Virus record (IMG/VR): IMGVR_UViG_3300033153_001906
Span: 1 to 64,000 of that record
DNA: 64,000 nucleotides
DNA from: a virus
Strand: one strand, 5' to 3'
A program made the translations under genes and the position numbers. A model generated the notes under the pieces. It was given only the letters and a program-made list of their open reading frames with translations. It ran no database searches and had not been told where the DNA came from. This document shows, in pieces, positions 3,692-24,096 of this stretch (position 1 is its first letter; every line of letters starts with the position of its first letter).

Positions 3692-4799
3692 TGAACAAAA
3701 CCTCAATGAGATCATTACATGCAAAGAATTTTGGTGCTTGTATATCGTTGTATGAATCTAGTCTCTCACGTATTCTATCGTAGTTGTCCATCATATAGTT
3801 AATTTGAAAGCACATCATTTCTTTAGTTTCTTTGAAACTCTCATAACTTTCTGTCCAGTAACTAGGATATAAAAAGTCTGAATAGCCTTCGAAGATTTCT
3901 GAATAACTAAGACGATCAGGTGCAAGAGGTAGTGCGCCAGTAAGTGGCCCCTCGATACACGTAGAGATACCCAATGTCTCTTGCAAGTTTGCAGAGAATA
4001 CCATCTTAGCTTCGCCAAGCAATGTGTGAAACTCATGTTTGGTTAGTTCTTGATCTTGACAGACAATGAACTCATATTGTGGTAGTTGCTCTGCCAAGTC
4101 TCGGAATATTTCTACTTGCTTCTCTGGCGCAATGCGGTGCGGGAACAGAATAAGATCGCGCTTTGGCAGATTCATATATGGCTTTAGTGTTTCTTCCATA
4201 TATTCCATAGGCCAGCCAGTGCGGCAATACTTTGTGTCGATTTCTTCTGGACTTAGTTCAGAGAAATGCCCATGATAAGGCTCGCGGAAACAGTTGCGTT
4301 TAAACATTTCAATATGAAATTCTGTTGCAAACCAGTTGTAGTCTACAGCATGGAAGATTGATTTTTCAAAGTTATTCGTCCAGCGTTTGTCTTTAATGAG
4401 TCGCCCCAAAAAGTCTTGCGGATCATAACTACCCGCATGCCATAATGCATGAATGACTACTGGAATTTGTAGTAGCTCACTCATGTATTTCAATTGTATA
4501 ATTCCTGAATGCCAAGCATCCGTGAATATAAATTGGTCACCTGGACTGACCTTGCCATTGGAGAATAATTCAGCAACGTAACTCAATTGATTATTTTTAT
4601 ATACGTTTGTCTGTGCAAAGTTTAAGAACGCGCCAGGTGTCGCTTTCAACTCTGCATCTCCTCCAGAGATATTTACAATCTCTACATCGGCCAATTCCCT
4701 GTTAGCTGCGGCAGCATTAAGCAGGGCGGGAATATGTCCTTTCCATTGACACGTATAACGTGTTGGTACGGACTCAAGGTCTACTACAAAAATCTTCAT
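3684..4799 (-). CDS. GT-B glycosyltransferase
   Basis: 371 residues. The C-terminal half has the donor-binding pattern of GT-B enzymes of the GT4 type: F-P-H-R-I-A-P-E-K-Q, then A-N-L-Q-E-T-L-G-I-S-T-C-I-E, the E-x7-E-like segment. Sugar donor and acceptor cannot be read from sequence. T4-like phages use such enzymes to glucosylate hydroxymethylcytosine, but other acceptors are possible. A Gfo/Idh/MocA and an MDR dehydrogenase at 10-11.9 kb could feed a modified sugar to it. The ATG at 4799 overlaps the preceding region as ATGA. Confidence 0.75.
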   Translation of the reverse strand: MKIFVVDLESVPTRYTCQWKGHIPALLNAAAANRELADVEIVNISGGDAELKATPGAFLNFAQTNVYKNNQLSYVAELFSNGKVSPGDQFIFTDAWHSGIIQLKYMSELLQIPVVIHALWHAGSYDPQDFLGRLIKDKRWTNNFEKSIFHAVDYNWFATEFHIEMFKRNCFREPYHGHFSELSPEEIDTKYCRTGWPMEYMEETLKPYMNLPKRDLILFPHRIAPEKQVEIFRDLAEQLPQYEFIVCQDQELTKHEFHTLLGEAKMVFSANLQETLGISTCIEGPLTGALPLAPDRLSYSEIFEGYSDFLYPSYWTESYESFKETKEMMCFQINYMMDNYDRIRERLDSYNDIQAPKFFACNDLIEVLFNG

Positions 4800-10957: not shown

Positions 10958-11871
10958 TTGAATCTTTCCAGTTGCATATGAATCCAATGGTCGAAGTCCT
11001 CTTCGATCCACGTTTGTCGTTCTTCACCCATAAACTTATTATTCATTACATCTTCAATCATTTTACCATACGCCGAATCAGGACAGAGGCCAAATTCAAG
11101 TTTTATCTTTCTACCACCTTTAAAATACAAGTGAATAGCTTGATCGTCATACCCTTCCTTCCATGATGCCTTCAACGTAATTGGTATCGGGGTATCATCA
11201 TGTAAAGGAATCATGTAGTGCGCTTCTGCATAATCGCAAACATTGTAGAATCCATCTTTGTCAATTTTTCCGTAATCTGTATTTTCGCCTAGATTATCTA
11301 AGTTCCAACGTTGCATCGTGAACGTTTTAGGAACCGCGTTCTGCATCGAAGGCCAGCCAACTATAGCAAACATAAAACAATACAAGTGTGGAAACAGATC
11401 ATGTGTTACGCCACCAAATGCCATATTCTTGTTAGTAAACCACCCGCCTGGACTTGGAATACGATCTCTATTCATCCAGTTAATCTCTACCTTTTCAAGA
11501 TCATCATTGTCTGCTATCGTAGTATATGTGTTTATTGATTCACGATATAAATTGTTCTTGACCATTATGATACGATGATTCGGAAAACGATGTACAGTAT
11601 TCTTCCATGCTTGTGCATTAGCCAATCCTGGCTTCTCAACGAGTATCGTTTTGCATACGTCAGATAATTCAAGAACAGCATTAAGATGATTCACGTTTGG
11701 ACAACACACAACTGCTATGTCATACTTGTCGGTCTTGGGAACATCAAGAACTGAGCCATAGTTCGCAGGTTTGAGTGGGTCTACCGTTGTTACGTGGTAT
11801 CCCAATTTCTCAAGTTGTGGCAGATAGACATTCATGCCGATGCCGCCAAGTCCGACTACTATTGCTTTCAT
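10954..11871 (-). CDS. Gfo/Idh/MocA-family oxidoreductase
   Basis: 305 residues from an ATG at 11871 (ATGA overlap). The N-terminal Rossmann motif is V-G-L-G-G-I-G, followed by V-V-C-C-P-N-V-N-H and V-E-K-P, the conserved E-K-P of this NAD(P)-dependent sugar dehydrogenase family. H-D-L-F-P-H supplies a likely catalytic histidine region. The family oxidises or reduces sugars and inositols. With the adjacent dehydrogenase it forms a small two-enzyme unit; product unknown. Confidence 0.85.
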   Translation of the reverse strand: MKAIVVGLGGIGMNVYLPQLEKLGYHVTTVDPLKPANYGSVLDVPKTDKYDIAVVCCPNVNHLNAVLELSDVCKTILVEKPGLANAQAWKNTVHRFPNHRIIMVKNNLYRESINTYTTIADNDDLEKVEINWMNRDRIPSPGGWFTNKNMAFGGVTHDLFPHLYCFMFAIVGWPSMQNAVPKTFTMQRWNLDNLGENTDYGKIDKDGFYNVCDYAEAHYMIPLHDDTPIPITLKASWKEGYDDQAIHLYFKGGRKIKLEFGLCPDSAYGKMIEDVMNNKFMGEERQTWIEEDFDHWIHMQLERFK

Positions 11872-12143
11872 GCTCCTTCCTTCATATGATCTGAATGACA
11901 CCAATCACACATTGAAACAAATTCTCCATCAACTCGAATTAAATTTTCGTTCCCTGGGGCTCCGCCCCTTGTCCCCTCACAAACATCACAATCATCTCTT
12001 GAGTCAGTGAGTAAATCTTTCGTTAGCCGACCAAATGCCTCACCAACGTCAACGCCGCGTTGCGACGGATTGGCTGTGTAACTATCGTTAATATAACCTA
12101 AAACGAAAGTTAGATCATTTTCAATTTCGTTGCGTTTTCTCAT
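11868..12143 (-). CDS. Small zinc-ribbon-like protein
   Basis: 91 residues from an ATG at 12143 that overlaps the upstream stop (TAATG). The C-terminal half has C-D-V-C-E-G-T-R-G-G and C-D-W-C-H-S-D-H, two CxxC pairs typical of a zinc ribbon. Function unknown. Confidence 0.65.
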   Translation of the reverse strand: MRKRNEIENDLTFVLGYINDSYTANPSQRGVDVGEAFGRLTKDLLTDSRDDCDVCEGTRGGAPGNENLIRVDGEFVSMCDWCHSDHMKEGA

Positions 12144-20817: not shown

Positions 20818-20840
20818 ATAGATACGTATATAACGCGCAA

Positions 20841-20870
20841 ACAAAAGCCCCGACGAGCGGGGCTTTTGTG
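20841..20870 (-). terminator. Intrinsic terminator
   Basis: Stem ACAAAAGCCCCG / CGGGGCTTTTGT with a short loop; T-rich on both strands. It ends the unit containing the small gene at 20900 and sits just above the late promoter of the next unit. Confidence 0.85.
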
Positions 20871-20899: not shown

Positions 20900-21061
20900 T
20901 TATCGCTTGAATAGGTTTAGTATGTCACGTTTGATACGTGCGAACAAGTGTGGTTGTTCGATTCCTGCCTTCTTATCGCGGTAAGGGATATATGCTACGT
21001 AGTAAACAAATCCAAAAAATATTAGACCACTTAGTACGTTCGCTGCCATTGCTTCGCTCAT
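20900..21061 (-). CDS. Small membrane protein, 53 aa
   Basis: ATG at 21061 with GGAGAAGAAA upstream. One hydrophobic segment (L-I-F-F-G-F-V-Y-Y-V-A-Y) is followed by a basic cytoplasmic-type tail ending L-F-K-R. Lies between the fibre gene and a terminator. Function unknown; a lysis accessory protein is one option. Confidence 0.6.
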   Translation of the reverse strand: MSEAMAANVLSGLIFFGFVYYVAYIPYRDKKAGIEQPHLFARIKRDILNLFKR

Positions 21062-21312
21062 TTTCTTCTCCAATTAATAGTTAATTATTATGCGTGTCTG
21101 AATGTGATGATCAGATGCTCCTGGTGTTGCGACTGTTGCTTGTGCTTGACGAGCAGTGCCGCCGTTAAGTAGACGGCCATCTGCAATATAAATATCTGCT
21201 ACTTCTGGATCATTCTCTGTTGCTGCCATGTAGCTTGCTGCGCCATTTGTTGCGTCACCGACCGTGACTGTTGTTGCTGAAGGTGATAGGGTTGTAACAT
21301 CTAGCGTTACAC

Positions 21313-24096
21313 TTAGAATCGTTGCTGCAATAGGAATGCCTGTTGCTGCACCAATGTTTTGTGCTGTAGCAGATGTTCTGCAATAGGAATGCCTGTTGCT
21401 GCACCAATGTTTTGTGCTGTAGCAGATGTTAGATCAACTGTGCCTGTAACACTATCTAGTGTACCAGATCCGCCTGTTAGAGCAATCGCATCGTCAACAT
21501 ATTTCTTGTTAGGAATGTCATCGTCTGCTGTAACATTGTCTTCATAGTTACCTGAGCCAGCAACAACACTAACTGCGCCAGTGCCATTAGTCAAGAAACC
21601 AATGTCGATATTAGCTTCTGAACCAGTGCCAGTTGTAATCTGCGCAGGGTTGCCAGTTGCGCCTGCTGAAATAGCAAGACCGTTAACTGCTGAAACAGTG
21701 TTATTTAATTCTAGTATTGGATCACCGCCGCCATCATTAAAGATGATTGAGCCAGTGCCATTTGGATTCAAGATCAATGGTTGGTCAGTAGTATTGTTAC
21801 TGATCGTGTCGCCATCAATAGTAATTTCGTCAATGATTAGAACGCCAGCAACAGTAAGTGTCGTGCCGTTAAACGTTAAGTTTGCACTACTATCAAGTGA
21901 ACTTGCACCAGTACCAATAGCAACTTGATTGTCAGCTACCGTGCCTGTTATTGTACCAACTGTTGTTGAGTAACCGAAACTTTCGATTCGATCATTAACT
22001 GCTGCTGCTGTCATTAATGTTACATCATCGTCTGTAAATTGCCCAGCCGTGTCAACAGTAACGAAAGCTGAACCATCTATTGTCAAGTCACCACTAAAGA
22101 CGTTTGCAGTTACTACGCCTGTTGTTGCATTATATGTAAGTTGTGAGTCAGTCTTAGGACCTAAGTCACCAGTTGGACTCTCAAAGAAAGCTATAGATGC
22201 TGTTGCATTTGATGAATCTGCAACAGTAATTAATGTTGGTACTGCTGAAACTCCTTGTGACTGCCATTCAACACCAATACGTATTGGATCACCGTTAGTA
22301 AATATTAGTCCTGTGTTGATTAGTGTTAATCCAATTGTCCACCAACCTGTGCTATCAGTTACCGAAGATACACTTGCTAGGATATAATCTGTATCGTCGC
22401 TTGCACTACGGAATGTTAGTACATCACCAACGGATAGGGCATCAAACAAGAAATCGTTAATTCTACCAGTATTATCTGTGTCATCAATATATAGTGTCGT
22501 GATTGAGCCAATCGTAATACTGTTGAAGTTAAGTATACCTGGGCCTGGATCGGTTGTTGTTGTTGCACTACTATACTCATATTCTATTTCAAGAACGTTA
22601 TTTGCAGTAAAGTCGTTACCAACATCGTCCGTGAACATAAGCGTATTAGGAGCATCATCGCGTACCCAAATCTGACCATCTTGTGCTGTGTCACCACCTG
22701 CCGCTGCTTGCTGTGTTACGTAAACAGATTCGCCAACAGTAAGGTCAGTAGAAACTGTAGCAGCACCAGTAACAGCAAATGTTGTGCCGTTAAACGTTAG
22801 ATTGCCACCACTGTCTTCAACTATACCAGATGCACCAGCAATAAGTACATCATTGTCTGTTAGCAGAGATGATTTAAGCGAGCCTGTAACAGCAAGTTCT
22901 GAACCACTAAATGTTAAGTTGCCACCACTGTCTTCGATAAGACCAGCCGTGCCAACGATCATTACATCGTTGTTTGTTAAGTCTGCTACTGTAATCGTGC
23001 TGCCTGTTGCCATTGTAATATCTAGGCCGTCTACTATTGCAAACGTTGTATCGTCAACTGTAAATTGAATTACGTTATCAGCCGTCCATGTTAACGTACC
23101 ATCTGTGCCAGAGTCACTAACTGCTAATATTGAGTCAAGCTCTGAAATACTAGTAGCTGATGTGCCAGCATTCATGTACGTCTTTAGCTTGGATGCTGTA
23201 ACAGCATAGTTACCAAGACCTTCTGAGCCGCCAGCTATTGAGTGATAAAGTATCAGTTCATCAGCATCATCAACGGAGTCAGTTACTAGATTTGTTTGCC
23301 CAAGAATATCAAGGCCAATAGTTGGGTTGCCTGATACACCGTTACCGTTAACAATGCTAATACCTTCATCGCCTGCTACTGCTGATGCTGTTAATGTACG
23401 TGAAGCATATGTATCGTTCGCTGTACGTGCAAGCATGCCGTTCGCTGTAGCTGTAACAATGTCTCTGTCAGCTAGGAAGTTTGTAACCGTAATGCGAGAC
23501 TCAACGCCTGCATCTTGGAAAATAAGTTCGTCTGCCACCGCAATAACTGAAGCTGATGTTAGTTGAGAAAAGTCTAAATCAATTACATTACCTGTTTTGA
23601 GTAAACCTGTGCCAGCAATAATATCGCTTGAAGTACTGAATAGCACCCAGTTCATATCAGTACCACCACTACCAGTTGTTAGTGGATCAGGGCCTTGTAG
23701 TACAAAGCCTGCGTCAGCGTTGACAGCGCCTTCTTCAATAAACGTAAAGTTACCTGCTGAAACTTCTGCATCACTATCGGAATCTGTAGCACGATCAAGT
23801 GTTTGGCCTTCGCCTGCTGCACCACCAGTTGCGCTATATGAGCCTGTAGTGACTGTAGTTGCGCAACGACATGATTCTTTGAAGTCAAGTCCTGCTGCTG
23901 TACTGTCTACGTATAGCTTTGTAGCTGCGTCTGTATCACCAACAGGAGTTAAAACTTGTAAGTGGGAGAGCGTTGAGCCGTCAGTAGTAGCTCGGAAATC
24001 TGCCGCGCCTGTATTGAATACGAAGCGTCCGCCTGCTTTACCAAATTGAACGTCATCGCCGACGCCTTTCAGTCCATAATTTTTTGTATCAGCCAT
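21313..24096 (-). CDS. Fibre-like virion protein, C-terminus shifted by tandem duplication
   Basis: 927 residues as read. It starts Y-G-L-K-G-V-G-D-D-V-Q-F-G-K and contains phage structural-type beta repeats; a unit of about 40 residues with E-D-S-G-G-N-L-T-F recurs (D-N-D-V-L-I..., N-N-D-V-M-I..., D-N-Q-V-A-I...). Low charge and high T/S/G/D content are typical of fibres and fibre-associated proteins. A perfect 53-base tandem repeat at 21325-21430 shifts the frame so the protein ends E-H-L-L-Q-H-K-T... and stops at 21313. With one copy removed the frame runs on without a stop to TAA at 21074, giving 989 residues. A late promoter lies upstream. Confidence 0.8.
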   Translation of the reverse strand: MADTKNYGLKGVGDDVQFGKAGGRFVFNTGAADFRATTDGSTLSHLQVLTPVGDTDAATKLYVDSTAAGLDFKESCRCATTVTTGSYSATGGAAGEGQTLDRATDSDSDAEVSAGNFTFIEEGAVNADAGFVLQGPDPLTTGSGGTDMNWVLFSTSSDIIAGTGLLKTGNVIDLDFSQLTSASVIAVADELIFQDAGVESRITVTNFLADRDIVTATANGMLARTANDTYASRTLTASAVAGDEGISIVNGNGVSGNPTIGLDILGQTNLVTDSVDDADELILYHSIAGGSEGLGNYAVTASKLKTYMNAGTSATSISELDSILAVSDSGTDGTLTWTADNVIQFTVDDTTFAIVDGLDITMATGSTITVADLTNNDVMIVGTAGLIEDSGGNLTFSGSELAVTGSLKSSLLTDNDVLIAGASGIVEDSGGNLTFNGTTFAVTGAATVSTDLTVGESVYVTQQAAAGGDTAQDGQIWVRDDAPNTLMFTDDVGNDFTANNVLEIEYEYSSATTTTDPGPGILNFNSITIGSITTLYIDDTDNTGRINDFLFDALSVGDVLTFRSASDDTDYILASVSSVTDSTGWWTIGLTLINTGLIFTNGDPIRIGVEWQSQGVSAVPTLITVADSSNATASIAFFESPTGDLGPKTDSQLTYNATTGVVTANVFSGDLTIDGSAFVTVDTAGQFTDDDVTLMTAAAVNDRIESFGYSTTVGTITGTVADNQVAIGTGASSLDSSANLTFNGTTLTVAGVLIIDEITIDGDTISNNTTDQPLILNPNGTGSIIFNDGGGDPILELNNTVSAVNGLAISAGATGNPAQITTGTGSEANIDIGFLTNGTGAVSVVAGSGNYEDNVTADDDIPNKKYVDDAIALTGGSGTLDSVTGTVDLTSATAQNIGAATGIPIAEHLLQHKTLVQQQAFLLQQRF
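21325..21430. repeat. Perfect 53-bp tandem duplication
   Basis: Copies at 21325-21377 and 21378-21430 are identical. Fifty-three is not a multiple of three, so the duplication breaks the frame of the fibre-like gene. It is either a recent mutation or an assembly artefact. Confidence 0.95.

Follow-up and report, generated by a model that had tools for sequence, protein, structure and literature searches.

A fibre-like structural gene in the window (the whole stretch of DNA analysed, 64 kb of a 119,174-bp metagenome-derived virus contig) is broken by a perfect tandem duplication of a 53-bp unit, and a conserved tail of approximately 100 amino acids lies beyond the break in another reading frame. 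The coordinates are listed in Table 1. The duplication may represent a real, recent and sporadic allele that has lost the fibre tip and has no regulatory role, a reading that is given slightly less than an even chance; an artefact of assembly is nearly equal to it in probability.

Table 1. Features of the fibre-like gene and its surroundings (positions are those of the window).
Feature	Position	Strand	Basis
Fibre-like structural gene as read, 927 aa, premature stop codon TAA at 21315-21313	21313..24096	-	Weak matches to phage structural/tail fibre proteins
53-bp unit, first copy (in the direction of the gene), in the gene frame, TSATAQNIGAATGIPIA	21378..21430	-	Sequence
53-bp unit, second copy, out of frame in the 927-aa open reading frame	21325..21377	-	Sequence
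Tail in the other frame, 100 aa + stop, rest of the predicted tip domain	21074..21376	-	Alignment A3, 61-72% identity to seven relatives
Conserved C-terminal end, ATCATCACATTCAGACACGCATAA = IITFRHA*, original gene frame	21088..21111	-	Comparison with relatives
Next gene, small 53-aa hydrophobic protein	20900..21061	-	Sequence alone

The two 53-bp copies are identical, abutting and head-to-tail; the preliminary description had noted two perfect abutting copies, and direct reading of the sequence bears this out. The run of matches between the copies is exactly 53 bp (2.0 perfect copies), with zero microhomology past the unit. The pair is the sole exact repeat of at least 20 bp within the 64-kb window, which rules out a chance repeat. 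A comparable duplication was not found in the remaining 55 kb of the contig, where only short-period tandem arrays are present. Slippage between pre-existing direct repeats was considered as a source of the duplication and rejected, as there is no microhomology beyond the unit and the repeats nearby are imperfect and only 9-13 bp long.

A length of 53 bp is not divisible by 3, so the duplication throws the fibre-like gene out of frame; the stop codon TAA follows shortly, and the truncation that had been proposed is confirmed. In the frame two bases away, no stop codon occurs between position 21433 and a TAA at 21076-21074, and with one copy of the unit the chain length would be 989 aa.

This longer reading had been thought to have a clean C-terminus. 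The one-copy frame is indeed open to the TAA at 21074, but its last ~13 residues, which end in TRIIINY, are off the frame of the family because of a 14-bp deletion near position 21111. The deletion is located at 21112/21111 (minus strand), just upstream of the letters that encode IITFRHA*, and is absent from 5/5 aligned relatives. The C-terminal motif of the relatives is IITFRHA or a close variant of it. The 14-bp deletion puts the last seven codons back in the original gene frame, and together with the duplication it gives a net change of +39 bp. In alignment A3 the TRIIINY end shows a loose resemblance to the last strand of the family, a chance likeness, and the sequence leaves open whether this end is tolerated in a 989-aa product. 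Beyond the 53-aa gene that follows the fibre gene, at window positions 20833-20870, a GC-rich inverted repeat is followed by a T-rich stretch (AAAAGCCCCGCTCGTCGGGGCTTTTG, minus strand), and this arrangement is terminator-like.

Relatives were found in IMG/VR with the protein, the tail alignment and the neighbouring DNA polymerase as queries. The same C-terminal region is encoded by 14 contigs, which represent about 10-11 distinct sequences (L089, L091 and L096 are near-identical copies, as are L105, L106 and L110). All 14 carry a single copy of the stretch, and in each the upstream region and the downstream tail form one continuous frame; the frame that is continuous in these intact homologues is broken in the window, as in other frame-broken phage fibre genes. 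The one-copy form is therefore ancestral, and in this respect the preliminary interpretation is upheld by 14 contigs (11 distinct sequences). The tail was not matched in isolate phages, nor by sequence in the PDB, and one weak partial match to it was found in a MAG. The polymerase displays at most 43% identity to those of large phages such as Sinorhizobium phage Phosso and Agrobacterium phage Atu_ph07, and by this gene the phage appears to be distantly related to these two.

The window tail has dN/dS values of 0.11-0.36 against four of the five relatives tested (the fifth comparison is saturated). These are near or slightly above the values between relatives, 0.07-0.22. The identity to the relatives and the dN/dS values agree with the earlier reading of the sequence beyond the stop codon as a coding tail and show that it is conserved. 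Since the tail dN/dS is low and the copies show zero divergence, the duplication is probably recent; the alternatives first stated, i.e. a recent event or an error, fit these data.

The fibre protein shows weak partial matches to isolate proteins annotated as structural, tail fiber or capsid decoration proteins, and no Pfam or PHROG match was found for it. A structure model of the C-terminal region of the relatives has a mean pLDDT of 70.8, and its best parts are residues 61-110 and 151-170 (~78-91). The model of the window's own tail is of low confidence (pLDDT 55.6). The tail model matches the jelly-roll domains of the phage cement proteins Pam1 and KHP40 and, more weakly, the fibre tip Bd2133 (TM about 0.4-0.65); the resemblance is to trimeric cement and fibre-tip jelly rolls of phages. 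The conserved ~100-aa tail is accordingly a predicted jelly-roll tip domain, and it may be the receptor-binding tip of the fibre. As the duplication is situated in the first part of this domain, the 927-aa product would be without nearly all of it.

Under the favoured reading, the fibre gene would normally have one copy of the stretch and end in the jelly-roll tip domain. A recent non-homologous event, free of microhomology, would have produced the tandem duplication of the 53-bp stretch. The resulting shift would cause the second copy to be read out of frame up to a stop codon just past it, and the fibre would thereby lose nearly all of its tip domain. This presupposes that the duplication is a feature of the phage DNA itself rather than of the assembly alone, and the fibre would presumably be dispensable.

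The main competitor is an artefact of assembly or consensus, in which two contig ends or mis-merged reads that share 53 bp were joined without merging of the overlap, the real gene having one copy. Its probability is put only a little below that of a real allele. The exact identity of the copies, their number of exactly 2.0 and the zero microhomology are also expected from a failed merge of overlapping contigs, and the break affects a conserved gene in a metagenome-derived virus contig. The duplication is the only one of its kind in the 119 kb and has hardly any counterpart in 2.1 Mb of other viral loci. In those loci perfect tandem duplications of at least 25 bp have periods divisible by 3, with the exception of one of 31 bp; since only this one breaks the frame, frame-breaking perfect duplications are rare. 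A second frame-changing indel, the 14-bp deletion, is located only ~210 bp from the duplication and could point to a local assembly problem. It also counts against a real allele that a tip-less form would have to dominate the sampled population in order to become the consensus. On the other side, a de Bruijn assembler run with k above 106 would produce the duplication only if the reads contained it, the sequence has no Ns, and the window has no other exact repeat of at least 20 bp that could seed a repeat misassembly. The duplication is the sole frame break in the 23.4 kb of the window with homology to relatives, and a generally error-ridden contig is rejected wherever this can be tested. Similar indels in the fibre gene of other contigs suggest either biology or assembly trouble specific to this gene.

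Two such indels were found. A comparison of L105 (positions 4658-4663) with L106 (4624-4661) displays a 38-bp frame-breaking deletion in the fibre gene of L105; L105 is otherwise identical to L106 and L110, which are from other metagenomes/data sets. In L109 (positions 4558-4670; the same contig as L002) about 71 bp are missing from the fibre gene, and this results in two overlapping frames. L109 also has a second copy of an ATCACATTCAGACAC-like end past the stop codon of the fibre gene. Across 77 kb of neighbouring genes in the relatives no frame break is seen, the intein in L098 excepted, versus 17 kb of fibre sequence with these two events; the difference gives p = 0.033 (relatives only, post hoc, two events). 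The L098 exception (positions 11480-12066) is an insertion of ~580 bp that interrupts the DNA polymerase at its GDTDS motif and has intein-like ends (...ILVHN/S). The reading frame of this intein appears to be broken itself, and a search of the insertion against Rfam yielded no match. The indels in L105 and L109 lean towards a real event in the window's gene, but difficulties with the assembly of a variable gene would account for them equally well. A broader proposal is that frame-breaking indels of 14-71 bp, as in the window, L105 and L109, mark the fibre gene of this phage group as a hot spot. Alleles without the tip or the whole fibre would then appear again and again, occur next to intact ones in natural populations and serve as a rudimentary means of turning host attachment on and off. 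This is considered very unlikely.

The preliminary description also raised the possibility of a switch, in which the fibre tip would be turned on and off within a population by slippage between the copies. Neighbouring 53-bp repeats may in principle gain or lose copies, the one-copy state yields a long frame, and the TRIIINY end of that frame is loosely like the last strand of the family. However, copy number in a phase-variable contingency locus differs between relatives, and here two copies are present in 0/14, all of them having one. In a search for near-identical sisters, neither the junction nor a 27-bp piece of the unit was matched exactly by other viral contigs, a set from which records very close to the window may have been withheld. 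There is one repeat pair rather than an array, there is no recoding signal, and owing to the 14-bp deletion the one-copy frame would still be without the conserved end. With no second two-copy contig, no frameshift signal and no suitable start codon, the switch did not find support and is regarded as highly improbable. A comparably low probability is given to a bypass of the frame, by ribosomal frameshifting or by synthesis of the tip as a separate protein, and to a shorter fibre that is the adapted product in its own right. The second frame, open from 21433, does overlap the end of the gene. However, an X-XXY-YYZ heptamer is absent from the overlap, the first ATG in frame with the tail (position 21229) is already within the domain, and the tip is fused to the shaft in 14/14 relatives. 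A programmed -1 frameshift and an internal start were both rejected, as neither the overlap nor the tail frame has a signal for them.

The annotation of the gene is corrected by these results, in that the 927-aa end is not the end of the fibre in this family and a conserved tip domain lies past the break. Should the reads contain the duplication, it would be a naturally occurring allele of an uncultured phage that has lost the fibre tip. Along with the L105 and L109 deletions, it would in that case raise the testable question of the frequency of fibre inactivation in nature.

Phase variation by tandem-repeat copy number is known in bacteria, e.g. in promoter repeats of M. tuberculosis (PMC12817950). 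The two cases are alike in that tandem copy number is reversible in principle. They differ in that the repeat described here is in coding sequence and not in a promoter, there is no array, no second state is seen among the relatives and there is no recurrence. Duplications in the tail fibre adhesin of phage T4 that expand host range have been described (work cited in e.g. PMC6957217). Those duplications are in frame and functional. In the window, too, a short duplication lies within a putative fibre adhesin gene, but here the frame is broken. Frame-broken fibre genes are already known, an example being stf (side tail fibre) of lambda PaPa, a laboratory strain in which a frameshift splits a gene that is intact in the ancestor and gives a truncated fibre (PMC9659904). 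The lesion described here is instead a 53-bp tandem duplication in the assembled contig of an uncultured phage, but in lambda and here alike a frame-breaking mutation leaves a truncated fibre.
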